A DNA stretch of 64,000 nucleotides, from assembly GCA_015066385.1 (NCBI GenBank), contig SVOJ01000014.1, positions 1 through 64,000 of the forward strand. Direction: 5' to 3'. Both the position numbers and the translations under genes were made by a program. Source of the stretch: Oscillospiraceae bacterium (lineage in GTDB: Bacteria > Bacillota > Clostridia > Oscillospirales > Acutalibacteraceae). The notes beneath the pieces were generated by a model, which saw only the letters and a list, made by a program, of their open reading frames with translations, was not told the DNA's origin and did no database searches. Below are positions 256-61,742 of this stretch, in pieces; the first letter of the stretch is position 1, and every line of letters starts with the position of its first letter.

Positions 256-1725
256 TTATGTTTCTTCAAATTTGATTTTTTTGATGGAAATACCGTATGT
301 TGCAAGCGATGTTCGAGTAACAGGAACAGCGATCATATTATAGTTCCCGGCGGCTTGCGGCGATAAATCAGTTACCGTGCTGAAATAGAGATAAGAAGTT
401 TTTGCTGCCGTCAGCGGAATTGTAAGCATAACCCCTTCCATGCCTGCATCGGATAAGGTTGCATGAAGACACACATCTTTTCCTGCGGCATAAGCCTCCT
501 CAAACATTTCCGCTGTTACTGAAGAATCAAGGGCTATTGTTTCTTGCGAATAATTGATAACAGCATCAATTATCAGATTCTGCGGCTGTGCATATTTCCA
601 TACCGCCCAAACATTCGGAATATCATCCGGATTGTCTTCGGATATTCTGATTGCCGGATAAAAGTGCTCCATTGCAGTAAACACCGTGTGGTTCGTGCCG
701 CTGCTGTCAATTGTGAAGATATGTGTCTGTCCATTGATGTCGGGAGTCGAGGCAAAGACGATATTATTTGCAGATTCTGACAGTTTTTCGGCAAAACAAA
801 TAAGTGAAGCACCGCTTGCCGCACCGACATCGAGCATATACCGCACATACGGAGAGCCACCTGATGCCTTTACCTGATCAAGTGATTGATCGCAGGTCAG
901 CACCATCTGCGAGCCGTTGACGGTTTCGGTAACGGTAACCGGAACACGAGCAAGACTTTTTACCAATTGCGAACCTGCCTCCTGTGAAAAATACCTGTCA
1001 TCATGGGTATGGATACGGTCTGCCTTGTTTGTCGTGATCCCTGCTATCAGATCTGCATTGTTTCTGATGTACGCAACGATCTCACTGAGTTGGTCGAGAG
1101 TGATGTCATCACTGTCAAGAACCGCGTTCAGTCGGTTCGTTATGGTAGAAATCAACGCTCTGATATCACTGTGCGCATCAGTAGCGGCGTTATGTGTACT
1201 GAGTGTCTGCTGAAACACGGTACTCGTTACATAGGATTTCAGGATATTATCTATCTCGGTTTCTGTGAAATACTTGTCATTGTGGTGATGCCCTATCGGG
1301 CTTTTTGCTCCTATCGCCTCTTGCAATGCTGCTATGAATTGATCCGTCGCTCCGAACCAGTCAAGAAAATCCGAGTTATTAAAAATGTCGTTCTTAAAAC
1401 TCGGCAGAACAGGAACAAACTCAGTATTTGTGATCAGCTGACTGCCGGCAAACAAGCCCATACCGAATTGCCCCGCTTCGGCTATGACCTGCGGCGGAAT
1501 TTCACAGACATAAGTTCTGTCTTCGCCGTCTTGGGTCAGACATAAGGGGTGAAAAACACTGTCCCTGAAAAAACCGGCTCGAATGTCCTGCACATTCTGC
1601 CACACGGAATCAAATAAGATCTTTGCAAAATAAGTTCCTTTTGTACCGGCGCGGACGGTAGCGGTCGGAATGTGCATACGCAGGGTCTGATCTTCCACAT
1701 CGAAGACTACAAATATTTTTTCCAT
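256..1725 (-). CDS. Tail fibre / BppU-type receptor-binding protein
   Basis: A 489-residue protein. The first 110 residues resemble the N-terminal beta domain of phage upper baseplate proteins (BppU-like), which anchors fibres to the tail. Two histidine-rich turns typical of trimeric fibre shafts follow: HHHNDKYF at 146-153 and HTHDDRYF at 239-246. A helical stretch lies between them. The remaining 240 residues are beta-rich and are the likely receptor-binding tip. The ATG at 1725 has an AAAGGAGG site 6 bp upstream. It follows the giant virion protein in the late operon. The receptor cannot be told from sequence; host wall polysaccharide or surface protein are both plausible. Confidence 0.8.
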   Translation of the reverse strand: MEKIFVVFDVEDQTLRMHIPTATVRAGTKGTYFAKILFDSVWQNVQDIRAGFFRDSVFHPLCLTQDGEDRTYVCEIPPQVIAEAGQFGMGLFAGSQLITNTEFVPVLPSFKNDIFNNSDFLDWFGATDQFIAALQEAIGAKSPIGHHHNDKYFTETEIDNILKSYVTSTVFQQTLSTHNAATDAHSDIRALISTITNRLNAVLDSDDITLDQLSEIVAYIRNNADLIAGITTNKADRIHTHDDRYFSQEAGSQLVKSLARVPVTVTETVNGSQMVLTCDQSLDQVKASGGSPYVRYMLDVGAASGASLICFAEKLSESANNIVFASTPDINGQTHIFTIDSSGTNHTVFTAMEHFYPAIRISEDNPDDIPNVWAVWKYAQPQNLIIDAVINYSQETIALDSSVTAEMFEEAYAAGKDVCLHATLSDAGMEGVMLTIPLTAAKTSYLYFSTVTDLSPQAAGNYNMIAVPVTRTSLATYGISIKKIKFEET

Positions 1726-10553: not shown

Positions 10554-11996
10554 TTATCCTCTGAGTGCCTGATACAGTTTATTGACCTCTTCCATACTCA
10601 GGCCGTATTTTTCCTCCGCATTCGTCAGCATCAGGTTAAATGCCGAATAATCCGCACCTGCATATTTTTTTAAATACTCATAAGCGGAATCATAAGCAGA
10701 TGTTCCGCCCGAGCCTGATGTTGAGCCGCCCGAGCCGTAAGAGCTACCGTAAGAGCCGCCGTAAGAGCCGCCCCATGAGGAACCGCCCGAACTTCCCGAA
10801 CCGCTCCACAAATTACCCCATGAACCGAGAGTCCCGAGTCCTCCGCCTGCCTGCATGGCATTTCCTTTCTGAATCGACAACAGTGCATTGTTGTACTGAT
10901 TCAGCCAGTTTGTATTGATTCCCAGCGACTGCAATTTGCTCAAGTCACCGTACTCTGCATAATAAGCGGCGGCTTCGCGAAGGGCACTTTCTTCCATGTA
11001 GGTCGGGTCGATGCCGACGTCTTTCAACTTGCTGAAATCGCCGTTTGCGGCGGCGGTGAGTGCAAAGTTGAGGTCTTTGGCCTTCTGCACGTCTTCGGTG
11101 GAATAGCCGTATTTTTCAAGTTCCGACAGATCGCCCGTAATATCTGCAACCCCGCCTGCATAGTCAAGCTGTGCTCCTTTGAGGTTGAGGTCGTATGTTT
11201 CCTGCAAATAAGAGGTATCAAAGCCGAGTGCGGCAAGGCGACTGAAATCACCCGTCTGCAAGCCCCAGTTGAGTGCCTGCTGTGCTTTTGCATCGGTCGC
11301 ATACTGTGTCAGGTCAAGACCGAGCATTTCACCGAATCGGCTGTAGTCACCAAACTGTGCGGCAAGTTCAGCTGCCGTCAGCTCTTTTCCGTAGGCGGTG
11401 TTCGCCATGTCCGAAAGCATGGAATATTCATTCAGCCGCTGTTGTTGACGGTCCATGTGGCGGCTGTAGGCATTCTGTTCGAGATCCACGGCAACATCAT
11501 TCAGATCCAGCATTGCATCCTGAAATACCTGCTGTGCGGCGGTCTGTGCATAACTGTTGCCGTAGCCGCCTGTCTGTGCCTGTGCCTTGCCCGCAATGTT
11601 CTCCGCACCGAGCGTTCCCGTGCGTACATAATCGTTTTTAATCTGCTGATACAGCGGATCGGAATTGTAATTGTATTCGTACTTATCGCCGTTGTCCTTG
11701 TACTGTGCATAGGCATTGTAAGCGGCCTTGGTGAAGTCCGCTGACGTGGTCGGCACAAAGGAACCGCCTGCCTGCTGTGCAAGTTCTGTGGCAGATCCGG
11801 GGGTGACAGTCGGTGTTGTTGTCGGCATTGTATCATCCAGTCCCACCGAAGCCCGCAATATACTTCTTGCATCCCCTGCGGTTACTTTTCCGTCACCGTC
11901 AAAGTCATAATCCATCGAAACGGGATCCAGCCCGATCGACTGCCGCATGGCGGCCCTTGCATCCGCCGCAACATATTTTTTCTTTTCTTCGCTCAT
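10554..11996 (-). CDS. Phage virion-associated protein with N-terminal dockerin
   Basis: A 480-residue protein between the nozzle gene and the giant virion gene. Residues 9-55 are a dockerin: a half repeat (ADARAAMRQSIGLD) and a full calcium loop D31-x-D33-x-D35-G-x-V-x-x-x-D42 ending in VTAGDARSILRASVGLD. A Thr/Pro/Ser linker (about 56-75) follows. Residues 75-200 are Tyr/Gln-rich and helical. Residues 200-380 contain about four repeats built on GDFSKLxxLGID. The tail is Gly/Ser/Tyr-rich (about 385-450) with a short helical end. There is no signal peptide, so the dockerin would reach the surface only on a virion or after cell lysis. The start overlaps the stop of the 54-residue upstream gene (ATGA). 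Structural role is inferred from position. Confidence 0.8.
   Translation of the reverse strand: MSEEKKKYVAADARAAMRQSIGLDPVSMDYDFDGDGKVTAGDARSILRASVGLDDTMPTTTPTVTPGSATELAQQAGGSFVPTTSADFTKAAYNAYAQYKDNGDKYEYNYNSDPLYQQIKNDYVRTGTLGAENIAGKAQAQTGGYGNSYAQTAAQQVFQDAMLDLNDVAVDLEQNAYSRHMDRQQQRLNEYSMLSDMANTAYGKELTAAELAAQFGDYSRFGEMLGLDLTQYATDAKAQQALNWGLQTGDFSRLAALGFDTSYLQETYDLNLKGAQLDYAGGVADITGDLSELEKYGYSTEDVQKAKDLNFALTAAANGDFSKLKDVGIDPTYMEESALREAAAYYAEYGDLSKLQSLGINTNWLNQYNNALLSIQKGNAMQAGGGLGTLGSWGNLWSGSGSSGGSSWGGSYGGSYGSSYGSGGSTSGSGGTSAYDSAYEYLKKYAGADYSAFNLMLTNAEEKYGLSMEEVNKLYQALRG
11832..11996 (-). other. Dockerin module of phage protein
   Basis: Residues 1-55 of the 480-residue protein. The second half carries a complete F-hand (D-x-D-x-D-G-x-V-x-x-x-D). 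The first half keeps its helix (ADARAAMRQSIGL) but its loop is replaced by MSEEKKKY, so at most one calcium should bind. Residues 38-54 match the dockerin at the end of the host protein at 58884-61742 in 15 of 17 positions. Confidence 0.85.
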
Positions 11997-12157
11997 GTTT
12001 TTCTCTCCTTTTTCAAGTCTTCAAGTTCGCGGTTGACCTGTGCAAAAGCCATGCGCAGTTCCTGCGTTTGATTCAGATTCTGTTCGTTGATGAATGCAAC
12101 AAGTTCCTGCACGTTCTGTGCATTGCATCTTTTCGGTTTAAAGGGAAATCTTACCAT
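11993..12157 (-). CDS. 54-residue coiled-coil phage protein
   Basis: A short frame bridging two late genes. The ATG at 12157 lies inside the last codons of the nozzle gene, and its TGA overlaps the ATG of the dockerin protein. The protein starts MVRFPFKPKRCNAQNVQELV and continues as a Gln/Glu/Leu-rich helix ending VNRELEDLKKERKT. The double overlap argues for translational coupling in the late operon. Function is unknown; a small structural or chaperone-like helix is the simplest reading. Confidence 0.7.
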   Translation of the reverse strand: MVRFPFKPKRCNAQNVQELVAFINEQNLNQTQELRMAFAQVNRELEDLKKERKT

Positions 12158-14058
12158 CTTAAAACGCTCACCTCGCTTGCATTCTCCGTAGTGCGGGTAA
12201 TGCCGTACACGGTCACGTTTCCGTAGCCTTCGAGTTTAATTTTCATACGGTCGCACCGTCTGCAGGTAACAGGCAGGCAAACGGAATCAATGTGTTTTCC
12301 TGCAACGGTTTCATGTAACTGAATCCATGCTCCGCCGTCATACTGCGCAGACACCTTCAGAATGCTGTCCTTCTCCATGCTCACACGGATCTGCAAAAGG
12401 CTTGTGCGTTTGTGGTCGGGTGTCAGCAACCCGAGGTCTGCACTTTCTGCAACAAAGGAAATGTCCTGCACTTGCGTTTCATCCTTGTAAGCGCAAGACA
12501 GAACCTGCGCCGAGCCGAAGTCATAATCAAAAAGCAGTTGCAGTTCTACACGGTCGGGGGCTGTGATGTCATGTACATACATCCAGACCCAGACAAGAGA
12601 GAATAATGCAGAAGCGACCACTCTTTGCGCCACAAGATACACCGCATTGTTCTTTGAAAACAGCAGACTGTTCTGCATGCAGTTTTCGCGAACCCAGATA
12701 TGCCGCAGGGTGTCATACACGAACAACACATCTTCGTTCTTCTCATCCTTCATGCGGATATAATATTTGTCACCGGCACACGCGGCGGCGGCTTCGGTGC
12801 ACTTTGCGGTCAGTGCATCCGAAACACAATACGGCTGATAGCCGCTGAACACATAGACCCCGTTGGAGGATTTATAATAAATAGCACCGTTGACCGTGAC
12901 CACGCTCTTTGCACTGCCCGGTTGCACGCCCTCACACTGAAAGGTCGTGACCGTAAAATCACTCGGTGCCGAACCGTACACGGCACTTACGCTGTCGCTT
13001 TTGAAAAACACGACCGCATCCGTTGTCGTACCCACCCCCGTGAATTCACCGGGAGAAGCAATGCTGACGGCATAGGAATCGGTCGAAATGCCCTGATAGC
13101 AGAACCAGTTCAGCGGGTCCCCGAGCTTGCTTGCATAGATCTCATTCACATAGTCGCCTTTGTGGTTTCTGCCCTTGCGGCAACCCCACAGACGGTTGTT
13201 GTGCTGTATGCAGAAGTCAAGCACAGGCATACTGCGGCTCACCGTAAACGGTGCGGCCTGCTCATAATCTGCACAAAGACTCACACAGACCGCAACAAGA
13301 AAGTCGTCCTGCACTCTCATCAGTTCAAACGAGCCGTTCAGTTCTTTCACGGAAAAGCCGTCCAATGCAACCACATCACCCTGTCTGAATCCGTGTCCGA
13401 TACCCGTCGCCGCTATCTTCATATACAAACTTGTTGCCTGCACCCAGATGTTCTGCGCTGCCGACCAATACCGCAGTACAGTCATTTCGCCCGATGTGTC
13501 TGCCCATGCCTTGCCGTTGGAAGGATCTTCGGGAGCCGTATCGGAAAATGTCGCATCAATTTCCGTGCCGTCCGCTTCGCAGGCACACACGGTTGCAGAG
13601 GATGCCGCAAAGGTGTTTTCGACACTCTGAAACTGCCATGTGCCGTCGTCTTCGGGGGTATACAGAATCCCGTCGGGCAGGATCATGAACGACCGACCAA
13701 AGGGAACAAGATACCTTTTTGTGTCCGCTTTCGGTGAACCTGCACGCAGTTTTTTTCCGTTCACAACCAACTCACCGCCCTCGGTGATCAGTGCATATCC
13801 GTCATGCAACGCACAGATGTCTTCGATCATCGAAGCCAGCACAAACACGTCGGGAGATTCAGTTTCGCCGTCAGCCGTCTGTATTTCATTGACGGCAATC
13901 CCGCGAGCATTTCTCGTGCGCAGACAGCCGTTGTCCACCACCATGTTGCACAGGTCAGCCCATTCGTTTTCGTTGGCTCCCGGGTGCTGATTGATGCCCC
14001 TGAAATCCGTCACCTGCGTGCGGTTCACCGCAGGCACGGGAATATAGCTTTTTCTCAT
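12151..14058 (-). CDS. Tail nozzle / packaged-DNA stabilisation protein (P22 gp10-like)
   Basis: A 635-residue, beta-rich protein beginning MRKSYIPVPAVNRTQVTDFRG, followed by GINQHPGANENEWADLCNM and CLRTRNARG. That opening (a ring-closing segment naming the module and a start-of-propeller loop) is characteristic of podovirus stabilisation/nozzle proteins that plug the portal below the connector. Repeated W/Y-rich blades such as NNRLWGCRKG and NWFCYQGIS support a beta-propeller fold. The gene starts inside the upstream connector gene (4-bp overlap). The gp10 equivalence rests on fold type and gene order, not on an alignment. Confidence 0.65.
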   Translation of the reverse strand: MRKSYIPVPAVNRTQVTDFRGINQHPGANENEWADLCNMVVDNGCLRTRNARGIAVNEIQTADGETESPDVFVLASMIEDICALHDGYALITEGGELVVNGKKLRAGSPKADTKRYLVPFGRSFMILPDGILYTPEDDGTWQFQSVENTFAASSATVCACEADGTEIDATFSDTAPEDPSNGKAWADTSGEMTVLRYWSAAQNIWVQATSLYMKIAATGIGHGFRQGDVVALDGFSVKELNGSFELMRVQDDFLVAVCVSLCADYEQAAPFTVSRSMPVLDFCIQHNNRLWGCRKGRNHKGDYVNEIYASKLGDPLNWFCYQGISTDSYAVSIASPGEFTGVGTTTDAVVFFKSDSVSAVYGSAPSDFTVTTFQCEGVQPGSAKSVVTVNGAIYYKSSNGVYVFSGYQPYCVSDALTAKCTEAAAACAGDKYYIRMKDEKNEDVLFVYDTLRHIWVRENCMQNSLLFSKNNAVYLVAQRVVASALFSLVWVWMYVHDITAPDRVELQLLFDYDFGSAQVLSCAYKDETQVQDISFVAESADLGLLTPDHKRTSLLQIRVSMEKDSILKVSAQYDGGAWIQLHETVAGKHIDSVCLPVTCRRCDRMKIKLEGYGNVTVYGITRTTENASEVSVLRW

Positions 14059-14767: not shown

Positions 14768-16060
14768 TCAGTTGCTTTCCGCAACAGCGGAGAACTCGGA
14801 TCCGCTTTCGCAGCGGATCATGTATTCTTCAATGAGGCGCTTTGCGGTTTCCGTAGCCTTCCAGCCGATGGAGCTTCTCTGATTCAGCGGGTCATTGCCG
14901 TAGCCTTTCTGCTTGACAATGTGCTCAAGGCCGCCGCCTTCGATATCGGTGACACCGTAGGCATTTTCGCCGAGGAACAGTGTGCAGAATACGGCGGAAC
15001 CGTCCTTGCCTGCACCCGTACCGCAGACGATGCTGTCAGCTTCAACAGCGGCAGAGAGTGCCGTGCCGAGAGTCAGGGTGGTCCCGTCAGCAGCGGCTTC
15101 GATCTTGGTCACGGTGTTCTTGACACCGTTTACATACACTTCGATCGGTTCAACGGGTGTTGCTGCGGTCAGTACTTCATTGACCTTGACAGCGGTAGCA
15201 CCGCTTGCAGCCTTTTCGGCAACCGTCAGGCGGCTCAAGCCGTCTGAAATAACAGCAGGGCCGATGATCTTGGCTTCGGAGCTTTCCACAAAACGGATGC
15301 CGCCGAGTTTACCGAGCTCGCCTTCGAAAATGTTTTCGGGAGATGCATATTTGTTTACCTCAATCCACTTGTCACCGGCTTCCATCATCAGGTCATTGGC
15401 TACAAACGCATGAATGATAGCAATATAACTGCCGTTGATTTTCGGTGCATTAACAGCCTTGAGTGCGGCTGCAATACGGAAAACATCCTTCACGCGAAGT
15501 CTGCAATTCGCAGTGATGTCAGCACGGGAAAGAATTTCGGTTTCGGTGCTGCCGTTGACTTCGGGAACATAATACACATTCGTGCCGCCGACGATCTCAT
15601 TTCTGATCACTGTATCAAGGGTCAGGGCTGCCTGATCTGCAAGCTCCCTGGTGGCTTCCAAAATAGTATTGTCCACAGAAGTCATTTCCAGCATGTCGGT
15701 CTGCTCAATATAATCACCGTACTGATCCACCGTGGCAGTAACAGCGGACACACGCAGCTTGTTACCGGCAGGGGTCACACCCTCGGTAATGGGCTTGAGT
15801 GCCTTCGGCAGCTTGGAAAATCTTCGGAATTCAATCGTCTTGCCGTTGTTCGCAGGAATGGGTCGCTTCTGACCGAACTGCGCATGAATGAGCTTGGGAC
15901 CTGCAAGATAAATCAGGGTCTTGTCATAAAAGGTTTTCATTTCGGCGGACAGTGCATTCGGGTCGGTGATCACACCGCCCTGCATCGTGCCGCCCGTGGC
16001 ATTTACCACATAGTCTGCATTGGTATCTGCAAAGAACTGCAGATCAAAAATTTTCTTCAT
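14768..16060 (-). CDS. Major capsid protein, N4-gp56 type, with LQFFA leader
   Basis: A 430-residue capsid protein of the N4-gp56 family. Hallmarks are the ITEGVTPAGNKL stretch and DQYGDYIEQTDMLEMT with the following long helix (ATRELADQAALTLDTVIRNE). The C-terminal part carries an Ig-like insert (VKVNEVLTAATPVEPIEVYV). The start is set at the ATG at 16060 because AAGGAG lies 11 bp upstream; the open frame from a GTG at 16072 overlaps that site. The N-terminus is MKKIFDLQFFADTN, which contains the LQFFA motif cut by Prp in Firmicute L27 and in some phage capsids. A Prp homologue is encoded 1.1 kb upstream, so removal of about ten residues is expected. Confidence 0.9.
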   Translation of the reverse strand: MKKIFDLQFFADTNADYVVNATGGTMQGGVITDPNALSAEMKTFYDKTLIYLAGPKLIHAQFGQKRPIPANNGKTIEFRRFSKLPKALKPITEGVTPAGNKLRVSAVTATVDQYGDYIEQTDMLEMTSVDNTILEATRELADQAALTLDTVIRNEIVGGTNVYYVPEVNGSTETEILSRADITANCRLRVKDVFRIAAALKAVNAPKINGSYIAIIHAFVANDLMMEAGDKWIEVNKYASPENIFEGELGKLGGIRFVESSEAKIIGPAVISDGLSRLTVAEKAASGATAVKVNEVLTAATPVEPIEVYVNGVKNTVTKIEAAADGTTLTLGTALSAAVEADSIVCGTGAGKDGSAVFCTLFLGENAYGVTDIEGGGLEHIVKQKGYGNDPLNQRSSIGWKATETAKRLIEEYMIRCESGSEFSAVAESN

Positions 16061-16095
16061 GATTATTTTCACTCCTTAATATAAACACAATCGTG

Positions 16096-17166: not shown

Positions 17167-17469
17167 TTAAATTTTTTCAATTTTTACGAAATCGGGAAAT
17201 TCGGCGGCAATTTCATTGAATCCCAGCACCGCCATGGCATACATGGAACGCACATCACCGCCGTGATCGGTCGCTCTGATGTCGAGTTCACCGTCGGCGG
17301 TCATGCATTGGATCATCGAATTTGATGCCATGACCGCCTTGTACAAAGCCGTGCACAGTGCCGAAATGCCTGCACACACAATGTCCTTGCCCTTCTCCGC
17401 ATAGCCTGCATGGCCTTTCACACGTAATATGCATTCATCCTTGCCGATTTTGTACTCAATCTTCGTCAT
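17167..17469 (-). CDS. prp: Prp-type cysteine protease (phage-encoded)
   Basis: A 100-residue homologue of the ribosomal-processing cysteine protease Prp. The active-site pair is in VKGHAGYAEKGKDIVCAG: a GHA histidine and an IVCAG cysteine 12 residues apart, the spacing of Firmicute Prp. The C-terminal helix-strand part also fits (MYAMAVLGFNEIA). The ATG at 17469 overlaps the portal stop (ATGA), so a longer open frame to 17712 is not used. In bacteria Prp trims the N-terminus of ribosomal protein L27. Here the position between portal and scaffold is that of a head-maturation protease, and the next two gene products carry its cleavage motif. Confidence 0.88.
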   Translation of the reverse strand: MTKIEYKIGKDECILRVKGHAGYAEKGKDIVCAGISALCTALYKAVMASNSMIQCMTADGELDIRATDHGGDVRSMYAMAVLGFNEIAAEFPDFVKIEKI

Positions 17470-19349
17470 ACTCTCGGTGCGACCGACTGCGCCGCACGTA
17501 AGCCTCCCTCCATCACGGTGTTTTCTTTCTTCTGTACTTCGCCGGCCGCTTTGTGTGCCGGTACGGCAAGGGCCTGTTGTTGTGCCTGAATGATCTGCTG
17601 TCCGATCTGTGTCGGTGCCAACAGACTCATCACCTGTGCATAAATGCCCGGCATAGTCGCTTCGAGCTGCTGTGCCATCTGCACACACAACGGATACAGC
17701 TGCTGCTGACACCGCAGGTTCAGTCCGTTCTGCTGTATGATCTGCTGCAGCTTGTCCTTGTTTTCGATCTCAAGATACTCAAGACACGCCAGAGCCTGCA
17801 CATCGTTGGACGGATTGAAGAATCCCATGTTGTAGAAGTTGATCGCATCCTGGTTCTGTGCCTGCCGTGCATAGGGATTGAGCTTGTGCACCTTGACGGT
17901 GATGTCAAACACAGGCTCTGCCGTGCCGAAGGAAACACCCATTGCATCCAGGTTGCGGCCGCCGATGGCTGCGGCATCAAACTGTGTGAATGCCTGTTCG
18001 CCGTTCTCACCCATAATACGGAACGTTCTCGGCGTGTTGTAGAACTGCCGCATCAGATCAATGATCAGCTCGCAGATCTGCGTGAATGCAAAGTAAGTGT
18101 CTGCGATCATATCACGGCTTGTTTTGTTGCCGGCTTCCTGCAAAGCGGAAATGGCCGCACCCGAAGTAACCCCCGAACTGACACCGCCGGACGAAAAGTC
18201 ACGGTTTGAAGTGACCTCTTTGAGTTCATTGACACGGTATTGCAGATAGTTCTGCACATTGCCCGTTGCCATGTTTACTTCATGTGCACGGATGCTGTCT
18301 TCTCCGAGGCTTGATCCTGCCACATGGATGAACTCCTTATCGGGATCCGCAAACTCCTTTTCGTTGATCGATCCGTCAATGCGGGTAAAATACCGCTTCT
18401 TTGTGGAGTCCAACACATTGCGGTCGAGTGCGGCGGTCATTTCGTCAATGGCGGTCTGCGTTTCTCTCTGCAGATCAAGGTAACCGAAGCCGAAGGGCGT
18501 CCCCTCTTCGGGGAACAGTGTGTCGAACACAAAGGGATATTTGCCGTGATTATAAAAACCCTTGTCCGCAAGCTGCGGGTCGTTCTCCGAAGCATACAGC
18601 ACATACTCCCCGATAAACTTGCAGTAATGCAGCACCGTTCTGCCGTCTGCAAGATGCTTCTTGTAATACCAGTCCACAACGGCGGTCTTGCCGGTCGTGT
18701 CAATGCTCTCGTCGTAGCGGTACTGTGCGAGCGTAAAGCCGATTCCGCCGAGCCTGCCGTTGAGAAACGGATAGGCAGACACAAGGTCGTCATTGTCGGC
18801 AAGATACACGAAAAACACGTTCTTGCTTTTCTGAATATCCATACAGCCGGGCTCCCAGAACAGGTTGAGCACGTCCACATTATTGACGGCAATGTCACCC
18901 AGGCCGTTGAGCTTGCTACTGTCCCACAGCACCGAATAGATCGCACAGCCGTGCTTCGGCTTGTCCCAGCTGGCGCGCGAATAGGTCTGCTTGAATCGGT
19001 TCTGCTCTAAGATCACGGGCAGAATGTCCGTCAGATCCTTGGCGGCCTGTCCGTCGGCTTCTTCACGGGGCAGCACGGTCACATCGGGGAAGTTGTCCAT
19101 GAAGTCCGCATGCTTGTTCGCAAGGGAATTGAACAGCCATGCCGTCGGCTTGCTTTTCTTTTTCGATGTGTCCCTGCGGTGTTGCATTCTGAACCATTCC
19201 TCGTGATCGATCACACGGCTTTCAAGCTTTGTCTTGCCTGCCTTGTACTTCGTAAGAATCTCGGCGGCCTTGAGCACCTGTTCCTTGCCGATGACTTCCT
19301 GTCCGTGCCGTTCATCGGATGCGAAGATTTCTTTTTCTTGTGTGTTCAT
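17466..19349 (-). CDS. Portal protein
   Basis: A 627-residue dodecameric portal subunit of the podovirus type. It has an N-terminal helical clip region (RDTSKKKSKPTAWLFNSLANKHADFMDNFP), a mixed core around WYYKKHLADGRTVLHY, and the characteristic FGFGYLDLQRETQTAIDEM and VTSNRDFSSGGVSSGVTSG segments. The C-terminus is Gln-rich helical (LRCQQQLYPLCVQMAQQLE), a barrel-like extension. It starts 10 bp after terL with a clear AGGAGG and overlaps the protease gene at its end, so it belongs to the late morphogenesis operon. Confidence 0.85.
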   Translation of the reverse strand: MNTQEKEIFASDERHGQEVIGKEQVLKAAEILTKYKAGKTKLESRVIDHEEWFRMQHRRDTSKKKSKPTAWLFNSLANKHADFMDNFPDVTVLPREEADGQAAKDLTDILPVILEQNRFKQTYSRASWDKPKHGCAIYSVLWDSSKLNGLGDIAVNNVDVLNLFWEPGCMDIQKSKNVFFVYLADNDDLVSAYPFLNGRLGGIGFTLAQYRYDESIDTTGKTAVVDWYYKKHLADGRTVLHYCKFIGEYVLYASENDPQLADKGFYNHGKYPFVFDTLFPEEGTPFGFGYLDLQRETQTAIDEMTAALDRNVLDSTKKRYFTRIDGSINEKEFADPDKEFIHVAGSSLGEDSIRAHEVNMATGNVQNYLQYRVNELKEVTSNRDFSSGGVSSGVTSGAAISALQEAGNKTSRDMIADTYFAFTQICELIIDLMRQFYNTPRTFRIMGENGEQAFTQFDAAAIGGRNLDAMGVSFGTAEPVFDITVKVHKLNPYARQAQNQDAINFYNMGFFNPSNDVQALACLEYLEIENKDKLQQIIQQNGLNLRCQQQLYPLCVQMAQQLEATMPGIYAQVMSLLAPTQIGQQIIQAQQQALAVPAHKAAGEVQKKENTVMEGGLRAAQSVAPRV

Positions 19350-19358: not shown

Positions 19359-20723
19359 TTAATATGCAGTATATAAGTTTAACGGATCCTTGTCGGGGAT
19401 CTTCTTTTCGGGTTTATACACGGGCTGAATGGGTCGGCTCATGCAGAAATAGCGGAACGAGTCTGCAAAGTGGTCCTCCTGCTCGGTGTTCAGGTCCTCG
19501 GGCTTCGTGTCGCTGTATTGCAGCAGCGGCAGGGTGCGTATGGCATGGGTGCAATTTTTAAAGAAATACACCATCGGAAAGCCGTTTTCGTCAAAGGCAA
19601 GACGGTAGTGGCATTGCATCCAACCCGGGAGCCGTGTATTCTCACCGGGCGTGAAATACACCCCTGCACGGTCCGCGTCTTCAATGATCGGAATTCCGCG
19701 GCTGCCGTCCCAGATGGACGGATCCGCCACACCGAAGATCTGACGGCCTTTCAGATACGGGTGCTCGCGTTCGAGCCTTGCGATCTCTGCGAAGATCTGC
19801 GGCGGATGCCATTTCACACCCTCATTCGGCACACCTGCACAGCCGTACAGCTGCAGAATCAGATACGCTCTGCCGTCATAGTCAATGGCCCACCAATCGC
19901 AGGAAAAAGGCTTCGAGAATCCGAAGTCAAACGAGCGCACAACCGTCCATTCCCTCGGTGGCCTGAACGGCTCAATCACATGGGTGTGTCGTCGGTCAAG
20001 ATAGTGCGCGGGATCGTCCCTGAATTCCTCAAAGAACTGTCCCTCAAATATGTTCCAGTCCCCCTCCAGCCATGCCCTGCGAAGTTTCGGCGGCAGGGCT
20101 TCAAGCTGCCTGATGTAGTCCGGATCCTCACGCATGAGAGCCTTGTTATCGGTCACAAGCGAACGGATGAAGGAATATTCCTCGCTGTTCTCGCCCGTGT
20201 TGTAGCTGCGGTCCACAAACAGCCGCTTGACCCAGGCATGTCCCACACCACCGGGGTTACAGGTCAGATAGATCCGTTTCGGAAAAGAATTGACACCGCG
20301 CACGCAAGCCTTGATGCGGTTGAACACTTCTTCGCTCAGCTGTGTCGCTTCGTCCAGAAACAGCACGTCCACTTCCGTGCCCTGGTACTTGTCCACGTCC
20401 TTCTCGTTCTGGCAGTGACGGAACAGAATCACACTGCCGTTCGGAAAGTGAAACTCCTTGACACTCTCTTTGTATTCTGCAATGTCACCGAGCATCTGCC
20501 GCATGGGGCCGATGTGGTTCGCACGCAGCTCCGGGTATGTGTGACGGACGATCATGACCTTGATCCCCGCATAATGCAGGCACAGCAGGATCGCTTTCAC
20601 CCTGACCGCCCAGCTCTTGCCGCCGCCTCGTGCACCGCCGAAGGCAATATACTTGTGCGTATCCTTCAAAAAAAGATACTGTTTATCGTTCGGGGGCGGT
20701 AAGACAAGATTTATACTTCGCAT
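19359..20723 (-). CDS. terL: Terminase large subunit
   Basis: A 454-residue DNA-packaging motor. The ATPase half has Walker A GGARGGGKS at 29-37 and Walker B VLFLDEA at 120-126, followed by the coupling motif region YLTCNPGG. The C-terminal nuclease half begins at SFDFGFSKPFSCDWWAIDY with the usual acidic residues. Length is normal. The start overlaps the terS end by 13 bp, and GGGGGTGG precedes its ATG. Two short subfamily features, REHPYLKGRQIFGVADPSIW and LNTEQEDHFADSFRYF, support the call. Confidence 0.95.
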   Translation of the reverse strand: MRSINLVLPPPNDKQYLFLKDTHKYIAFGGARGGGKSWAVRVKAILLCLHYAGIKVMIVRHTYPELRANHIGPMRQMLGDIAEYKESVKEFHFPNGSVILFRHCQNEKDVDKYQGTEVDVLFLDEATQLSEEVFNRIKACVRGVNSFPKRIYLTCNPGGVGHAWVKRLFVDRSYNTGENSEEYSFIRSLVTDNKALMREDPDYIRQLEALPPKLRRAWLEGDWNIFEGQFFEEFRDDPAHYLDRRHTHVIEPFRPPREWTVVRSFDFGFSKPFSCDWWAIDYDGRAYLILQLYGCAGVPNEGVKWHPPQIFAEIARLEREHPYLKGRQIFGVADPSIWDGSRGIPIIEDADRAGVYFTPGENTRLPGWMQCHYRLAFDENGFPMVYFFKNCTHAIRTLPLLQYSDTKPEDLNTEQEDHFADSFRYFCMSRPIQPVYKPEKKIPDKDPLNLYTAY

Positions 20724-40726: not shown

Positions 40727-40784
40727 TATACCATACATACCTATGTCATAGGTGTGCCATATCCAAACAGGAGGAATTTCAATT

Positions 40785-42881
40785 ATGAAGAAATCCGCAA
40801 AAAAACTGATCGCGCTTTTGCTTACGGCTGTTATGCTGTTGAGTTGCGGTCTTGTATCCGCATCTGCCGCAGAGGCTGATTATACTCTCATTTATCCCGC
40901 TTACGGTCGTTTTGGTCCTTACATTCTCTGTTCCGTTAACGGTTACCAGAATAGTCTCGGGGATGCAGGCGTGCTTGAAATTCCTGCTGAGATCAGTGGT
41001 GTGTTTGATGTTTTGTTGCCCCAGATTGCTGATAATGCTTTTGCTTATTACAATCCCACAGATACCAATGCCGCCAAATACAATGAAGAACTCAAAGAAC
41101 TGATTGTGCCTGATCTTACCGCGGTTCTCGGTGAACAGGTTGCCGGTGTCGGCGGTGCTTTTGTGATCGGCGATCATGCATTTTATAACCTTGCAGGTCT
41201 TGAAAAAGTTGTTATCAAGGGCGACGTTGTGCTCAAGGATTATGCTTTTGCAAACTGCACAAATCTGAAAACAGTCATTTTTGAAGGCAAAAATATTACG
41301 GTCGGTGCAAATGCTTTTGCGGGTTGTACTAATCTTGCCGATATCCGGTTTGTTTCCGATGTGGAACTGAGCACGGGTGTCAATGCTTTCAATGATACAA
41401 AATGGTTCTCTCAGTATCCTACCGATTTCATCATTGCCGGCACAACGTTGGTTGCTTATGTCGGTAACGATGATTCTGTAAGCGTTCCGCTGAGCATTTA
41501 CAAAATCGGCAACGGTGCGTTCAAAGGCAACAAAACGTTGCAGAGTGTTACCGTGACCCAGAATATCGTCTCTTTGGGCGATGAAGCTTTCATGGATTGT
41601 TCTGCGTTGAAGAATGTTGAAATTTCCGAATATGCATCGCTTGACTATGTCGGTACGGATGTGTTCAAGAATACCCCTTATTATGACAACTATGAAGGTG
41701 ATTTCTTCTGTATTCAGAATCGCCTGATTAAGTACCTTGGTAAGGATATGGATGTTACCATTCCCAATACCGTCAAGGAAATTGCGGCTGATGCATTCAT
41801 GGGTTGTTATTCCAAATCGGGTGACGGTTCTGTCAGCTGGCAGGTTTCATCCATCCGTATTCCCGCATCTGTTGAAGTCTGCGAAGAAAACTGCTTCACG
41901 CTTTACACAACTCCTACTACATTTGTTCCTGTTCTTTATGTTTACAGCAATACGCCCGCCGCTGCTCTTGTCGCGGAAAATGGCTATAATCATGTAGTTC
42001 TTGGTGTTCCCGGCGACGTAGATATTGATAATGTTGTTTCTGCCGCGGATGCAAGAAGCGCGCTGCGTTTTTCCGTAGGTCTTGCTGATCCCACTGCAGA
42101 AGAACTTTATATGGCTGACGTGGATGGTGATCTTGCGATCACTGCCAATGATGCACGTACCATTCTGCGTGTTTCGGTTGGTCTTGATGATATTTCCGTT
42201 GAAACATTGCTGACAAAACCCTCTACAACCACCGAAATCCTGCAGTATTACAACAAGGTTCTTGACAAAACTGCAAGATTGCGTGCCGGTTATACAAAGG
42301 AAATCACAGGTTCTTATGCTGATAATAATACATCGGGTTGTAGTCTTGATATAAACACCTATGCTCTGTATATCAACCCGATTATGAAGGATGACTCTTC
42401 TGTTGTCAATTCTTTCCGTGCTTATGAAAGTAATACCGAAGCCGCTGTTGCAAATCTTGTTACAAGCGATCTGATTTGTGAAGATGCTGTCAAGTCCGCT
42501 TCCTGCATCCTTTCTGACGGCAAATATCATATCACCATCAATATGAATACGGAAGAAGCAATTACGGATGATACCTTTGTTTCTGATATTTATCCCGTTG
42601 CAGGCCGTTCTCACTTTGATTCCATGCTCGCAGACAAAACATGGTTCAAACTGAGTTCCAACTGGTTCACTTATGACCTGTTCTATAAGAACTGCTCGGT
42701 AAAAATGGTTGTAGATGTCAAAACCGAACAGATCGAAAGCATTGATATGGGCGTAACCTACTATTTCGATAATATTGACGGTGTTATCAATCTGATCCAT
42801 GTCGCAAACTTCGGCAGAACCACGGGTACCGGTTTTGCAACCCGCAATGATACTATTTCTTACAGCAATTTCGTTTATTAA
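40785..42881 (+). CDS. Secreted leucine-rich-repeat protein with dockerin
   Basis: A 698-residue surface protein; the start at 40785 follows AGGAGG, and an upstream open extension is rejected. A signal peptide (KKLIALLLTAVMLLS, cleaved near ASA-AEA) precedes BspA-type leucine-rich repeats of the IP-x-x-V...IGNxAF kind (about 80-390, for example HAFYNLAGLEKVVIKG). A two-repeat dockerin follows (nt 42011-42200: DVDIDNVVSAADARSALR; DVDGDLAITANDARTILR with SVGLDD). A unique C-terminal domain of about 220 residues follows the dockerin, unusual because dockerins are often terminal. Role: a cohesin-docked cell-surface or adhesin protein. Confidence 0.85.
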   Translation: MKKSAKKLIALLLTAVMLLSCGLVSASAAEADYTLIYPAYGRFGPYILCSVNGYQNSLGDAGVLEIPAEISGVFDVLLPQIADNAFAYYNPTDTNAAKYNEELKELIVPDLTAVLGEQVAGVGGAFVIGDHAFYNLAGLEKVVIKGDVVLKDYAFANCTNLKTVIFEGKNITVGANAFAGCTNLADIRFVSDVELSTGVNAFNDTKWFSQYPTDFIIAGTTLVAYVGNDDSVSVPLSIYKIGNGAFKGNKTLQSVTVTQNIVSLGDEAFMDCSALKNVEISEYASLDYVGTDVFKNTPYYDNYEGDFFCIQNRLIKYLGKDMDVTIPNTVKEIAADAFMGCYSKSGDGSVSWQVSSIRIPASVEVCEENCFTLYTTPTTFVPVLYVYSNTPAAALVAENGYNHVVLGVPGDVDIDNVVSAADARSALRFSVGLADPTAEELYMADVDGDLAITANDARTILRVSVGLDDISVETLLTKPSTTTEILQYYNKVLDKTARLRAGYTKEITGSYADNNTSGCSLDINTYALYINPIMKDDSSVVNSFRAYESNTEAAVANLVTSDLICEDAVKSASCILSDGKYHITINMNTEEAITDDTFVSDIYPVAGRSHFDSMLADKTWFKLSSNWFTYDLFYKNCSVKMVVDVKTEQIESIDMGVTYYFDNIDGVINLIHVANFGRTTGTGFATRNDTISYSNFVY
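42011..42200 (+). other. Host dockerin (LRR protein)
   Basis: Two F-hand repeats: D-x-D-x-D-N-x-V-x-x-x-D then helix ARSALRFSVGL; D-x-D-G-D-L-x-I-x-x-x-D then ARTILRVSVGLDD. The second helix is close to the phage dockerin (ARSILRASVGLDD). Confidence 0.85.
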
Positions 42882-43920: not shown

Positions 43921-44862
43921 ATGAAAATTGCAAAGAAACTGCTTGCCGCTGTTGTTGCTGTAATGCTTGTGCTCAGCCTTAGTGTTTGCGCATTTGCTGC
44001 ACAGAGTGCCGAAACCGGCGATGTCAAGATCGAATCCGATTGGGTTATCGACTCTTTGGGAACCATTGCTGTTAAGGTTTACTTCACTGACGCTGTTGAT
44101 CTTAAGTCTTGGGATCTTAAGCTTACCTATGATGCAGCTATGTTTGATTTTGACATCAACGAAGTTGGTGCCGATGCAAAGGCTGTTCAGACCTATTGTA
44201 ATTCCACCAAGAACTCTTTCACTGATGAATCCAACGCCGGTGTTGATGGCGAAATCCAGGTCGGCGGCTACTTCAAAGAAGTTCTGTGGACTGCTGAAGA
44301 ATTCCTTGCAAACTCCAACAGAACTGGTAACTGCATCGTTAACGATGAAAAGTTCGAAGCTTCCATCTTCTATCTGAAGGTCGTTGATACTGAAGGCTTT
44401 GAAAAGAACGGTACCACCATCTCCATCGAAGGCGGCATGACTTTTGCTGATCCAAAGTCCGTTTCTGATGAAATCGTAAAGCCCGGCGAAGTTACCGAAC
44501 CTACTGAAGTTACCGAACCTACTGAAGTTACCGATCCTACTGAAGTTACCGATCCTACTGAAGTTACCGATCCTACCGAAGTTACCGATCCTACTCGTCC
44601 TACCGACGTTACCGATCCTACCGATGTAACTGATGCAACTCGTCCTCCTGTAGAAGATGACGATGATTGCCAGCCCGGCAAACCCGGTCATGACGACTGC
44701 AAGCCCGGCAAGCCCGCTTGCAAGCCCGGTAAGCCCGTTGTTAAACCCGGCAAGCCCAACCACAATCATCCCGGCACCGGTGACAGCGCTGCTCTTGCAG
44801 CTGCTGCTGGAGTAGTTCTTCTTGCAGGTGCTGCATTCGTAGTATCCAAGAAAAGAAAATAA
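43921..44862 (+). CDS. Cohesin-like surface protein with repeat stalk and anchor-like tail
   Basis: A 313-residue protein; AAGGAAGG precedes the ATG at 43921, and an open extension from 43738 is rejected. A signal peptide (LLAAVVAVMLVLSLSVCAFA) is followed by a cohesin-like beta domain (about 27-185) with the marker strands TIAVKVYFTDAVDLKSWDLK and LTYDAAMFDF. A stalk of TDPTEV repeats (about 190-240), an Asp-rich turn and KPGKP repeats lead to a C-terminal PGTGD, a hydrophobic helix and KKRK, which resembles a sortase or membrane anchor. The domain assignment rests on pattern, not alignment. It could carry dockerin proteins on the cell wall. Confidence 0.75.
   Translation: MKIAKKLLAAVVAVMLVLSLSVCAFAAQSAETGDVKIESDWVIDSLGTIAVKVYFTDAVDLKSWDLKLTYDAAMFDFDINEVGADAKAVQTYCNSTKNSFTDESNAGVDGEIQVGGYFKEVLWTAEEFLANSNRTGNCIVNDEKFEASIFYLKVVDTEGFEKNGTTISIEGGMTFADPKSVSDEIVKPGEVTEPTEVTEPTEVTDPTEVTDPTEVTDPTEVTDPTRPTDVTDPTDVTDATRPPVEDDDDCQPGKPGHDDCKPGKPACKPGKPVVKPGKPNHNHPGTGDSAALAAAAGVVLLAGAAFVVSKKRK
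44488..44627 (+). repeat. 18-bp repeats coding the Thr-Asp/Glu-Pro-Thr stalk
   Basis: About seven near-identical copies of GAAGTTACCGATCCTACT (EVTDPT), the last ones degenerate. A wall-spanning, likely glycosylated stalk. Confidence 0.85.
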
Positions 44863-58508: not shown

Positions 58509-58883
58509 TAGAAAAAGTTTTTTGTAACTTCTCTTTGATGCTTTTCTATGTTTTTACCAAAGAATTTTATAGCACTAAAGCGGATTTATGGATAGATTGA
58601 TAAGAGATTGGTCGTAAAAGGTTACAAGCTTGTTACACTTTTTTGTGTTTTGTGTTATATGCTTTTATCGCTGTCCATCTGAGGACAGTTTTGTCGGATT
58701 ATTTGTGCGGAAATAGACTCGTTGTTCATGTTTTGTACAAAATTTGTTGCTAATAATTGTTTATTTTACCACCAAAGGAAAGGTTGCTTTTGCTTTGATA
58801 TTTATGTAAAATATAAGTTGTGAAACAAATGCGAAGCGCAGATTATGTTTCGCAAAAAAGAAATGCAGAAAGGATATTCTCTC
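58509..58883. other. Intergenic region between xpt and dockerin gene
   Basis: A 375-bp A/T-rich stretch with no coding frame. A GCTGTCC-atct-GGACAG hairpin lies near 58671-58690. A rightward promoter must lie in the last 100 bp, but no hexamer pair is clear enough to name. Confidence 0.5.
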
Positions 58884-61742
58884 ATGAAAAAGTCCAAGAA
58901 ACTTCTCAGCATTCTGTTGGCTGTTGTGATGGTATTTTCCGTCGTCGCTGTGCCCGTGAGTGCTGCCGTCCCGTCCAATGTGCAGACATTGGAGTCATTG
59001 GTTCAACCTTCCAACCTTGCCGGTCTCATAGATTGGCTGTTGACCTCCCTCAATAACAGAAAAACGTATTACGCAGATTCGGTACTTAATTTTGTCTGTG
59101 CTTTTGTTGAGGATATCAAAGCAGAAGTTCCCGAAGGAACAGATGTGTTCAACGACAACATTGCAACTTCCACAAAAGCTACATATGTTATGAATTTCCT
59201 TGACAAAATGCTTGCAGAGCAGAATCTTAACGAGGCTCTCGGTACGGATATTCTGAATATCGTTAATGCAATCCCCGGTCTTGAGGTGGATCTGAATTCG
59301 GTTGATGGTATTCTGGCAACGTTGAATTCTGTGCAAGGCATTAAAGGGATTGCCGGCGGGGATATTGCAAATCTGAATCTCGACAGTCTCATTGTAAAAA
59401 ATCTGATCGGTTCTTCTGCACAGTCCAGAAGATCAACCGGCGATCTGCAGATCATCTATAATTTGATTCAATTCCTGAAAGACAACACCAATATTTTCAG
59501 AAAATTCCTTACCGGTGATCTGAATCTCGGTATTATCGGTACGGTTGCAGGGAATCTTGCTGACCAGGTCAACAGCTATGCCGGCGAAATCACCGTTATG
59601 ATTAAAGACCTTGTGTATGATTCGCTTCTCGGTGCGCCCGACGGTGCGTCTTCCCATGCGGAAAGCGCTTATAAGAACTGGACTGTTGATCAGATGGCAA
59701 TCGGGGCACTTGTGAAAATGCTGACCGATTCCGTGCCGGCTGATACGGATGAAATCAATAATTTCCTGAATAAGCCTGTTTATGATCTGCTTGCATACTA
59801 CGGCGATCGTTTGTATGACAGTTTCCTGCTTGATGTGTTGCAGAATGATCTGATGGGTGTTATCAAACAGTATGCAGGTGACAATGCACTTGCACAGTAT
59901 TTCAAGATGGATGCCACTTTTGTTGACTTCAACACAGATTTCGGCGGCAAAGTTGATTTTGCAACCAACGGCATTTTTGCCGAAGTCAACAATCTTGTTG
60001 TTGCTCTGTTTGAAAAACTGATCGCAGACGATATTCTTGTTAAACTTGACCTCAAAAAAGGCGGTAACGAAAACCTCAATGCAAACCTTGAAAAGGTGAT
60101 CAAGTTTATTCTTCCCAGAATGGCCGCTATTCTGGATCCTGCTGAATTTGATTTCTCCATGTATACGCAGGAATACGTAGCTGACAAGGAACTCAAAGAC
60201 CTTGCTCCCGGGATCCTGAAGATTTTCTATCCCGGCTGGTTCCATCTTGATGCAGCAGAAATCGATGTTGTTGAACAGATCGATACCATGGGCGAAGCAG
60301 CAGTACTTGCTGTTTACTATGCGCTCATCGAATTCAATGAAGTGATGTTTACAACAGAAAACACTTATGATTATATTTCCGAATGGAACAGCAAAATTTT
60401 TGAAGCTGACGGCGTTACACTGAAAGATCTCGGCAACTCCGATTGGGGCAATATCTGCCTTTCCATGGCTGCCGATGCTGCTATGTTCGGTTTTGCACTC
60501 AACGGTGACAATTTCTTCTTTGATTTTGATATGGACGATATCAAAGCCGCAAAAGCCGCAAAATGGGACGGCGTTGCTTTCCTTGACGAAATCGCTGACT
60601 GGGGTATTGATATGGTTAAGGGAATTCCTGCTGTTACCGATCACCTCAACGGCCAGCGCGGTATTGTGAATGATGACTACGGCCCGTTCTACAAACTCAA
60701 TGTTCTGCTCAATGAAATTCTTGACTGGAGTTTCCTGAGTGACGTTTCTTATGGTTCTTTCAATCTTGATATCGAAACGCTGATTTTTGACGGTCTTCTT
60801 GGAAATATTTATGAATTTGATATTGCAGGCATTCTCGGTCTGTTTGCCGTGAACAACAAGCAGGGCAACATTCTGAATTTGCACACCGTTCCCGCACTTC
60901 TCTCCATTGTTGATAATGTTCTGAATGTTCTTTTCAGCCATTCCGGGGCAACACAGAAAGTATCCGTTGCGGCAACTTGTACCGATATCGGCTTCACGGT
61001 TAATGCTTGCACAAAGTGCGGCTTGTATCTGAGCGATTATTCCGAAAGTGCAAAAAAGAAACACGTGGAGGTATCTGAAATTCTGATTGCGTCCACTTGT
61101 GACACAAAAGGCCTTGTACGCTACACTTGCGAAAACTGTGACTATGTGCTTCGTGAAGAAACCGATGCAACGGGACACAAATATGCACTGACTGCTGTTG
61201 AAATTGACGGTGTATGGTATTACGGCAATATCTGCGCAGTCTGCGGCGACGAGGCCGGCGAACTGGATGAAGCTCCTGTTCCCGATTCTATTGTCATTGA
61301 AAAAAATCCCGATAAAGTTGAATACATCATGAACAGCGACGAAGAACTTGATCTGACAGGTTGGGTCGTGAAAGAAGTTTATGCCGGCGGATTCTCCAGA
61401 GAACTGTCCGAAACCGGATATGCACTGATTGAAATCGTAAACGGTCTTGATCTGACTGTTGCCGGTGAACAGACCATCACAATCAGCTACTTCGGTTGCG
61501 AAGCCTCTTTCACCGTAACGGTTGTTGACAACAGCGAACCCGAATTTGTTCTCGGCGATGCAACAGGCGACGGTTTGATCAAATCCGACGATGCCCGTGC
61601 GGCACTTCGTCATTCCGTCGGTCTGGAATTGCTCAGCGGTGTAAATGAAAAAGCTGCCGACTATACCGGAGACGGTGCCGTTACCGCCGGTGATGCCCGT
61701 GCAATTCTTCGTCTGTCCGTCGGTCTGGATCCCCTCAATTAA
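58884..61742 (+). CDS. Secreted 952-residue protein with zinc-ribbon-like, Ig-like and dockerin ends
   Basis: Start at 58884 (AAAGGAT upstream); signal peptide LLSILLAVVMVFSVVAVPVSA. Residues about 30-690 are a long, unrecognised helical region with repeated aliphatic-acidic segments and no hydrolase motif. Then come two CxxC pairs (NACTKCGLY, TCENCDYV) with histidines, a bacterial Ig-like domain ending TITISYFGCEASFTVTVVD, and a terminal two-repeat dockerin (DATGDGLIKSDDARAALR; DYTGDGAVTAGDARAILRLS). It is probably a cohesin-bound surface component. Confidence 0.8.
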   Translation: MKKSKKLLSILLAVVMVFSVVAVPVSAAVPSNVQTLESLVQPSNLAGLIDWLLTSLNNRKTYYADSVLNFVCAFVEDIKAEVPEGTDVFNDNIATSTKATYVMNFLDKMLAEQNLNEALGTDILNIVNAIPGLEVDLNSVDGILATLNSVQGIKGIAGGDIANLNLDSLIVKNLIGSSAQSRRSTGDLQIIYNLIQFLKDNTNIFRKFLTGDLNLGIIGTVAGNLADQVNSYAGEITVMIKDLVYDSLLGAPDGASSHAESAYKNWTVDQMAIGALVKMLTDSVPADTDEINNFLNKPVYDLLAYYGDRLYDSFLLDVLQNDLMGVIKQYAGDNALAQYFKMDATFVDFNTDFGGKVDFATNGIFAEVNNLVVALFEKLIADDILVKLDLKKGGNENLNANLEKVIKFILPRMAAILDPAEFDFSMYTQEYVADKELKDLAPGILKIFYPGWFHLDAAEIDVVEQIDTMGEAAVLAVYYALIEFNEVMFTTENTYDYISEWNSKIFEADGVTLKDLGNSDWGNICLSMAADAAMFGFALNGDNFFFDFDMDDIKAAKAAKWDGVAFLDEIADWGIDMVKGIPAVTDHLNGQRGIVNDDYGPFYKLNVLLNEILDWSFLSDVSYGSFNLDIETLIFDGLLGNIYEFDIAGILGLFAVNNKQGNILNLHTVPALLSIVDNVLNVLFSHSGATQKVSVAATCTDIGFTVNACTKCGLYLSDYSESAKKKHVEVSEILIASTCDTKGLVRYTCENCDYVLREETDATGHKYALTAVEIDGVWYYGNICAVCGDEAGELDEAPVPDSIVIEKNPDKVEYIMNSDEELDLTGWVVKEVYAGGFSRELSETGYALIEIVNGLDLTVAGEQTITISYFGCEASFTVTVVDNSEPEFVLGDATGDGLIKSDDARAALRHSVGLELLSGVNEKAADYTGDGAVTAGDARAILRLSVGLDPLN
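61560..61742 (+). other. Host dockerin (952-residue protein)
   Basis: Two full calcium loops of the D-x-[DT]-G-D-G kind, each followed by DAR-x-x-LR-x-SVGL. The second repeat reads VTAGDARAILRLSVGLD, almost identical to the phage dockerin. Confidence 0.88.

Follow-up and report, generated by a model that had tools for sequence, protein, structure and literature searches.

Dockerins on a virion-region protein and on the endolysin of a Clostridia prophage as candidate anchors to a cohesin-displaying host

Why should a gene that lies among the structural genes of a phage begin with a dockerin-like module of host type? Cohesin–dockerin pairs have been studied as enzyme scaffolding in fibre digestion, and the question is raised by the gene at 10554-11996 of the 64,000-nucleotide stretch analysed here (contig SVOJ01000014.1 of the Oscillospiraceae assembly GCA_015066385.1; hereafter the window), the product of which is referred to as the module protein. 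An earlier note, made from the sequence alone, had recognised a dockerin in it and proposed that the phage borrows the cohesin–dockerin code of its host. The answer favoured here, with a little more confidence than doubt, is that this phage lineage anchors its proteins through dockerins to the envelope of a host that displays cohesins, the dockerins replacing glycan binders or standing beside them.

Residues 31-42 of the module protein read D-F-D-G-D-G-K-V-T-A-G-D, a full canonical loop of the form D-x-D/N-x-D/N-G...D12. The full loop had been described in the earlier note; the dockerin is not complete, however, as the first calcium loop is absent. What remains is a first helix (residues 10-20), the first repeat being without a loop, followed by one complete calcium loop and helix, and this half-dockerin has the single calcium repeat found in truncated (group 2) dockerins. 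The identity noted between VTAGDARSILRASVGLD and the host sequence VTAGDARAILRLSVGLD, from the comparison gene in Table 1, was reproduced at 15 of 17 positions. The second helix of the window copy is host-like (DARSILRASVGL), and its second F-hand mostly follows the own-genome consensus DARxxLRxSVGL. The dockerin module lies within the gene because the ATG at 11996 is preceded by an aaggag Shine-Dalgarno sequence (Table 1). The open frame proposed earlier was recovered, its strand being corrected to minus, and no hydrophobic stretch was seen by eye at the N terminus, in agreement with the reported lack of a signal peptide.

Pfam Dockerin_1 (PF00404) gave 14.7 bits on the window contig (C27:11856-11909), under its cut-off of 22.9 bits, and was called neither in the Pfam scan of the window proteins nor for the N terminus of the module protein alone. 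Against a profile of own-genome dockerins, the half-dockerin scored 57.3 bits, with 6.9 bits for the best of 1000 shuffled modules (57.6 and 7.0 bits, respectively, when one prophage row was removed from the profile), and the whole module protein, used as query against the own genome, matched dockerins with E values down to 2.3e-11. Comparison of the module alignment with dockerins by hhalign gave 97.9% and E 5e-13; without the window row the values were 96.9% and E 1.3e-10, and E was 1.7e-10 when one prophage row was also left out. This alignment has 20 rows, some loci being repeated from two collections, and 15 rows after the hhalign filter. Dockerins were the top matches of a PDB profile search with the module, and the predicted fold of the half-dockerin resembles dockerins. 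Sequence comparison and fold prediction together support the N-terminal module as a genuine dockerin relative.

The remainder of the protein belongs to a family that is widespread among Clostridia phages and prophages and for which no Pfam, PHROG or NCBIfam family was matched at a meaningful score. A single peptide motif recovered 202 relatives from genome contigs and 317 from viral ones, and 80 of each were retained for analysis (160 loci). A non-redundant set of 153 rows remained once sequences open at the 5' end, sequences sharing residues 1-60 with another, and sequences with 80% or more identity to another had been removed. A Pfam scan of 150 of the 153 N termini found PG_binding_1 in 25, LysM in 12 and Dockerin_1 in 3, and in-family profiles divided all 153 into 25 with PG_binding, 12 with LysM, 15 with the half-dockerin and 101 unrecognised. 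LysM and PG_binding_1 are binders of peptidoglycan, not of fibre. As these modules fill the N-terminal slot elsewhere in the family, the half-dockerin takes the place of known peptidoglycan-binding modules. The nearest head gene detected upstream was nozzle-like at 136 of the 160 loci, portal at 10 and adaptor at 1, with none detected at 13, and the nozzle match ends directly upstream in all ten dockerin-type genome loci (L070-L076, L079-L081). At the loci with a portal gene nearest upstream instead (L082, L113, L114, L123, L130, L144, L145, L148, L149 and L165), the gene has moved.

The same fusion, which the earlier note had suggested seeking in related prophages, is encoded in 16 of 26 genomes of the host genus (the window together with L013, L018, L035, L036, L037, L038, L040, L042, L043, L045, L048, L050, L051, L053 and L055), with G304, G316 and G319 left unassigned in this count. 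Beyond the core, the L055 frame departs from the family sequence. Codons were compared in 37 of 120 pairs, those for which dS was finite in module and core alike. The median ratio of nonsynonymous to synonymous substitution (dN/dS) was 0.30 in the former and 0.35 in the latter, a rough estimate because dS is often above 1 and there is overlap between pairs; these sequences suggest that the half-dockerin is under purifying selection. A recent accidental acquisition, which the earlier note had tied to absence of the dockerin from close relatives, is ruled out by this selection and by the 16 genomes, the module being conserved in phages of the host genus. On a tree of the core, 15 half-dockerin rows fall inside a 25-row group (SH-aLRT 95), the other 10 rows of which are without it, and at least five gain or loss changes are required. 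Independent capture by the window phage, at which its host-like sequence (57.3 bits, the others reaching at most 29.5) and module-less nearest rows hint, is not claimed because a single origin was not rejected (approximately unbiased test, p 0.081). No close donor was found among 20 own-genome dockerins, two prophage lysins included, and two window genes, the best nucleotide match by E-value being 75% over 73 bases; most of the 74 dockerin matches of the own genome lie outside this comparison.

A second dockerin was found by the module scan, at a C terminus encoded on the viral contig IMGVR_UViG_3300024268_002441. This contig represents the same phage, matching positions 1-2439 of the window at 100% and own contig C9 at 100% over 3696 bases. 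The protein, encoded outside the window, is an endolysin of 292 amino acids (aa) with a GH25 domain (E 5.6e-33) and a full dockerin with two F-hands that scores 35.6 bits, over the Pfam cut-off. It is of phage type, matching PHROG endolysin families (phrog_291 endolysin, E 8.7e-50), and its gene adjoins that of a tail-region protein of leucine-rich repeat (LRR) type, as judged by eye. In a survey of 51 lysin loci of the genus, which form part of all GH25 and amidase matches, the prophage-type lysins with a full dockerin were this endolysin, L294 (own contig C13), L295, L305, L310 and L334, and an amidase, SPOR and a C-terminal single F-hand were combined in L306, L312, L315 and L316. A strict dockerin DNA pattern, which overlooks L256 and the GH25 dockerin among other known cases, detected nine stretches in the viral collection: four from the virion module of this phage and five from C termini of lysin-like proteins, L266 among the latter being without a Pfam catalytic match. 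Two viral amidases (L257, L258) join a CW_7 repeat and a full dockerin, combining glycan and protein anchors. The C terminus of L017 looked dockerin-like by eye and was set aside, Pfam and the profile giving no support. Host-type GH25 frames with dockerins, of 601-913 aa, were seen at L280, L288, L291, L292, L293 and L296.

Both genes could be read in 13 prophages, and 11 of these have at least one dockerin. Both dockerins are present in the window phage (by way of the viral contig), G310:C48, G318:C3 and G306:C138; the virion module alone in G317:C56, G315:C12, G321:C52 and G303:C19; the lysin dockerin alone in G187:C8, G300:C14 and G305:C71; and neither in G308:C25 and G314:C183. G302:C75, where a contig end cuts the lysin, G314:C179, where the genes are 16 kb apart, and G319:C305, which consists of fragments, were left out of the pairs. 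The own genome also holds a second prophage of the family, with a module protein without dockerin at C47:863-1324 and a GH25–dockerin lysin at C13:87420-88265; the two pieces may belong to one prophage.

Candidate partners are encoded by the host. A scan of its genome at E <= 1 gave 74 matches to Dockerin_1, a count that takes in weak and prophage ones; of the 12 matches to Cohesin, 5 exceed the cut-off. Weak dockerin counts are soft because control genomes also match Dockerin_1 (9 of 14 at E <= 1, 2 over the cut-off); Cohesin was matched in 2 of the 14 controls and over the cut-off in 1. Two short single-cohesin proteins (L319, L320) are probably membrane-bound, as their N termini are lipobox-like by eye. 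The window itself encodes a divergent cohesin-like domain (Table 1), in a protein whose C terminus matched Pfam Gram_pos_anchor at E 0.061 only. Domains of this type occur at six places in the own genome, some beside dockerins in scaffoldin-like proteins (L323, L325 and L327 being host scaffoldin-like proteins with cohesin-like domains and dockerins); Pfam Cohesin was sub-threshold in 5 of 5, and comparison with PDB sequences gave no cohesin and chance-level matches only.

The features considered are collected in Table 1. The setting among head, nozzle and giant-protein genes given in the earlier note was confirmed, the neighbours of the module protein gene being nozzle-like, giant, capsid, portal and terminase genes; "nozzle" is the label used in that note and here for the phrog_511 match, and is not that of PHROG. 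Because its gene follows the nozzle-like gene, the module protein is probably an ejected or tail-region protein. The giant protein is not a fixed neighbour, as no comparable frame was found in the downstream sequence available for the ten dockerin-type relatives; by tblastn it matched 42 of the 160 loci, the flanks of which are short. Frames of 1245 and 977 aa stand directly downstream of the module protein in L072 and L073, at the place of the giant protein in the window. Beyond the tail fibre the own assembly has a gap of approximately 1.9 kb, after which the prophage resumes on own contig C9 with the GH25–dockerin endolysin. In this gap between C27 and C9, the viral contig of the same phage encodes a 606-aa tail-region protein with BspA-type leucine-rich repeats by eye (L254:2500-4320), which falls in PHROG families of unknown function, is possibly receptor-binding and shares its repeat type with host surface proteins. 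A tyrosine-recombinase-like gene at 35100-36382 of the window (by eye) adjoins a tRNA-Pro, and another recombinase-like frame, also recognised by eye, lies at the opposite end on the viral contig (L254:6318-7265). The C-terminal part of the module protein (10554-11346 in the window, and likewise in L035, L039 and L060) consists of helical repeats around AKYGDYSxLExLGVDTS, in highly variable number, with motif counts of up to 11 (L060).

Table 1. Positions of the module protein gene, its parts, neighbouring phage genes and host genes used for comparison
Feature	Position in window	Strand	Remarks
Module protein, 480 aa	10554..11996	-	N-terminal half-dockerin, linker, conserved helical core, helical repeats, Gly/Ser-rich tail
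Half-dockerin, residues 1-56	11829..11996	-	helix 10-20, calcium loop 31-42, helix 40-50
Single canonical calcium loop, residues 31-42	11871..11906	-	D31, D42, A43 invariant in 20 aligned rows
Conserved core of uncharacterised family, ~residues 102-217, around TGGYGNSYA	11346..11693	-	
Shine-Dalgarno aaggag ahead of ATG at 11996	12005..12010	-	
Small frame, 54 aa, in the interval between nozzle-like and module proteins; overlaps module protein ATG	11993..12157	-	by eye
Nozzle-like protein	12151..14058	-	phrog_511, labelled internal virion protein, head and packaging
Giant protein, 2911 aa	1804..10539	-	phrog_22978, function unknown
Major head protein	14768..16072	-	phrog_1357
Portal protein	17466..19349	-	phrog_156
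Terminase large subunit	19359..20723	-	phrog_2
Tail fibre	256..1725	-	phrog_19602
Host cohesin-like domain of gene 43738-44862, candidate partner	44026..44475	+	Pro/Thr linker, sortase-type C terminus (by eye)
Host protein, C-terminal full dockerin (comparison)	58845..61742	+	
Host LRR protein with dockerin (comparison)	40752..42881	+	

In the reading favoured here, a virion-region protein bears a half-dockerin where its relatives bear PG_binding_1 or LysM, and in the endolysin a dockerin lies within or next to the wall-binding part. Each module would engage, in a calcium-dependent manner, cohesins held in the membrane or wall of the host: on entry the half-dockerin would keep a genome-delivery protein at the wall, and at lysis the endolysin dockerin would keep the lysin on the wall of its own host. 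Homology, conservation, the shared slot, the second dockerin and the existence of cohesins were read from sequence and fold prediction, from which we infer cohesin binding, virion location and the roles at entry and lysis. The idea that the phage borrows the host code thus stands as far as a genuine dockerin relative, its conservation in the genus, the slot of peptidoglycan binders and the endolysin dockerin carry it, and it fits anchoring to the envelope; the suggestion that the module masks the released protein found no support. A more specific version is put forward tentatively, as a serious possibility: a temperate podovirus-type lineage infecting cohesin-displaying Clostridia would exploit the cohesin–dockerin code of its host both at entry, through the half-dockerin of a virion or ejection protein, and at lysis, through an endolysin dockerin that replaces or supplements a glycan-binding domain, with cohesins as phage receptors and specificity determinants.

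Several observations weigh against the favoured reading. The half-dockerin has one loop where Type I dockerins have two tandem F-hands, its predicted fold reached a structural Z below 8, middling by the scale of the tool, with a best Foldseek E of 0.83, and the copies of other phages are diverged, scoring 16.3-29.6 bits against the own-genome profile. The whole module protein matched nothing in the PDB at E <= 0.001 by Foldseek, so that no known fold was recognised for its body, and both virion location and ejection are read from gene order. The downstream sequence available for the ten dockerin-type relatives showed no frame near 2911 aa, the largest having 1245 aa, and for L070 it extends over only 0.5 kb. 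Within the genus, nine module proteins are without the half-dockerin (L010, L039, L041, L046, L047, L049, L052, L058, which belongs to the own genome, and L060), and L038 has no in-frame ATG, GTG or TTG ahead of the module. L154, L155 and L077, which in the tree of the core are the three rows closest to the module protein of the window, are all without it, so that presence in close relatives, as raised in the earlier note, holds for the genus and fails for the nearest rows. Eight prophage-type amidases with a SPOR-like end by eye have no dockerin (L298, L299, L300, L307, L308, L309, L313, L314), and the lysin dockerin could have been co-captured, since host GH25–dockerin proteins exist. With 101 of the 153 N termini lacking a recognised module and nine genus proteins lacking one, the half-dockerin is dispensable; its patchy presence therefore makes it useful rather than essential.

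Some of these features would suit a repurposed calcium-binding fold that stabilises or gates a virion protein, for example as a calcium switch in ejection, with cohesin binding lost and the endolysin dockerin a separate matter. The calcium loop is indeed the best conserved part of the module (D31, D42 and A43 in 20 rows), drift is seen in its first half and towards the end of the second helix, and Dockerin_1 matched 3 of 150 N termini though 15 hold the module. The host-like second helix retained in the window copy speaks against such a loss, however, and both its exchange for LysM or PG_binding_1 at one slot and the dockerins on lysins of the same phages point to binding rather than to calcium only, so that we regard this explanation as rather unlikely. 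It appears improbable that the dockerins serve retention or dispersal by holding virions or lysins, once released, on fibre or debris through cellulosome-like scaffolds there, and not on the infected cell: a protein that is internal or ejected would be unexposed on the free virion, and the slot partners of the half-dockerin are peptidoglycan binders, even though scaffoldin-like host proteins exist and 6 of the 10 dockerin-type genome loci have record names from rumen (RUG) or from goat, sheep or deer gut.

A large donor pool, namely the 74 own-genome Dockerin_1 matches, and the patchy presence of the module would both be expected if host dockerin fragments were captured neutrally, with no selected function. 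Occurrence in sixteen genomes, the signs of purifying selection and the constant slot run counter to this, as does the finding that the only other viral carriers of the strict pattern are lysin-like C termini (5 of 9 stretches), and neutral capture is considered very improbable. Least credible of all, and hardly to be expected, is a contact between phage proteins within the particle, made by the dockerin and a cohesin encoded by the phage. Dockerins are docking modules and the gene lies among head and tail genes, but neither C27 nor C9 gave a PF00963 match at E <= 1 (a cohesin of strong divergence could escape), on C27 the window-type cohesin-like domain matched nothing beyond its own host gene, and the gap between C27 and C9 holds the LRR protein on the viral contig. 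Anchoring to host cohesins at the envelope is thus retained as the preferred reading. If it is correct, cellulosome-type surface proteins double as phage anchors, the range of specificities among dockerins and cohesins would be under a new selective force, and lysins and virions would have a protein–protein route for recognising the host wall. The analysis has also yielded a collection of natural half-dockerins from across the genus, and a large, uncharacterised family of phage proteins in which wall-binding modules are swapped at an N-terminal slot.

Precedent for dockerins in phages was sought in sequence records and in excerpts of the literature. By tblastn, the endolysin dockerin gave 6 matches at E <= 1 among 50,697 annotated phage records, none of them to Vibrio phage records, and the half-dockerin itself gave no match in the same records. 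The six were rejected as lysin or virion dockerins; by eye they look bacterial with dockerin-like segments, four starting like secreted proteins and two being cut by the record start. A virion or lysis protein of a phage that bears a dockerin is nowhere described in the excerpts, bar two passing notes of resemblance (PMC3558961, PMC5967307); one quoted passage on dockerin resemblance was read as a carbohydrate-binding module instead. In vibriophage VvAW1, a podovirus, gene 40 has Blastp homology to dockerin type I proteins and is discussed, in the text available, only with regard to a possible attP and bacterial origin (PMC3558961).

Type I dockerins of cellulosomal bacteria (PF00404) share with the module its calcium loop, the DARxxLRxSVGL helix and the predicted fold, whereas the phage dockerins lie on virion-region and lysis proteins without a signal peptide by eye, and the virion copy has one loop. 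The truncated (group 2) dockerins of Ruminococcus flavefaciens likewise have only one calcium-binding repeat; those single-repeat dockerins are C-terminal in bacterial proteins and, according to the excerpt, have been proposed to be non-functional or to have a single binding mode (PMC2930009), and one cohesin can bind two short dockerins (Duarte et al., 2025 JBC, as cited in the excerpt of PMC12817449). The phage virion module is N-terminal instead, though the lysins L306, L312, L315 and L316 have their single F-hand at the C terminus. Wall hydrolases that bear a dockerin, as in the cellulosome lysozyme of Ruminococcus champanellensis (excerpt of PMC6403190), resemble the endolysin in joining the two domains; unlike the host GH25–dockerin proteins of 601-913 aa, the phage enzyme has 292 aa, adjoins tail genes and matches PHROG endolysins. 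Podovirus ejection proteins (T7 gp14/15/16) are comparable in the position of the gene beside head–tail genes. In the portion available of a review, they swap domains among themselves and are described in phages of mainly Gram-negative hosts, phi29-like phages being without them (PMC8954989). No sequence (PHROG) or fold (Foldseek) match between them and the module protein was found. The support that this domain swapping and the single-repeat dockerins of R. flavefaciens lend to anchoring is indirect. Phage wall-binding modules (LysM, PG_binding_1, SPOR, CW_7) share the slot of the phage dockerins and probably their job; these bind peptidoglycan or glycan, whereas the dockerin would bind a protein of the host.
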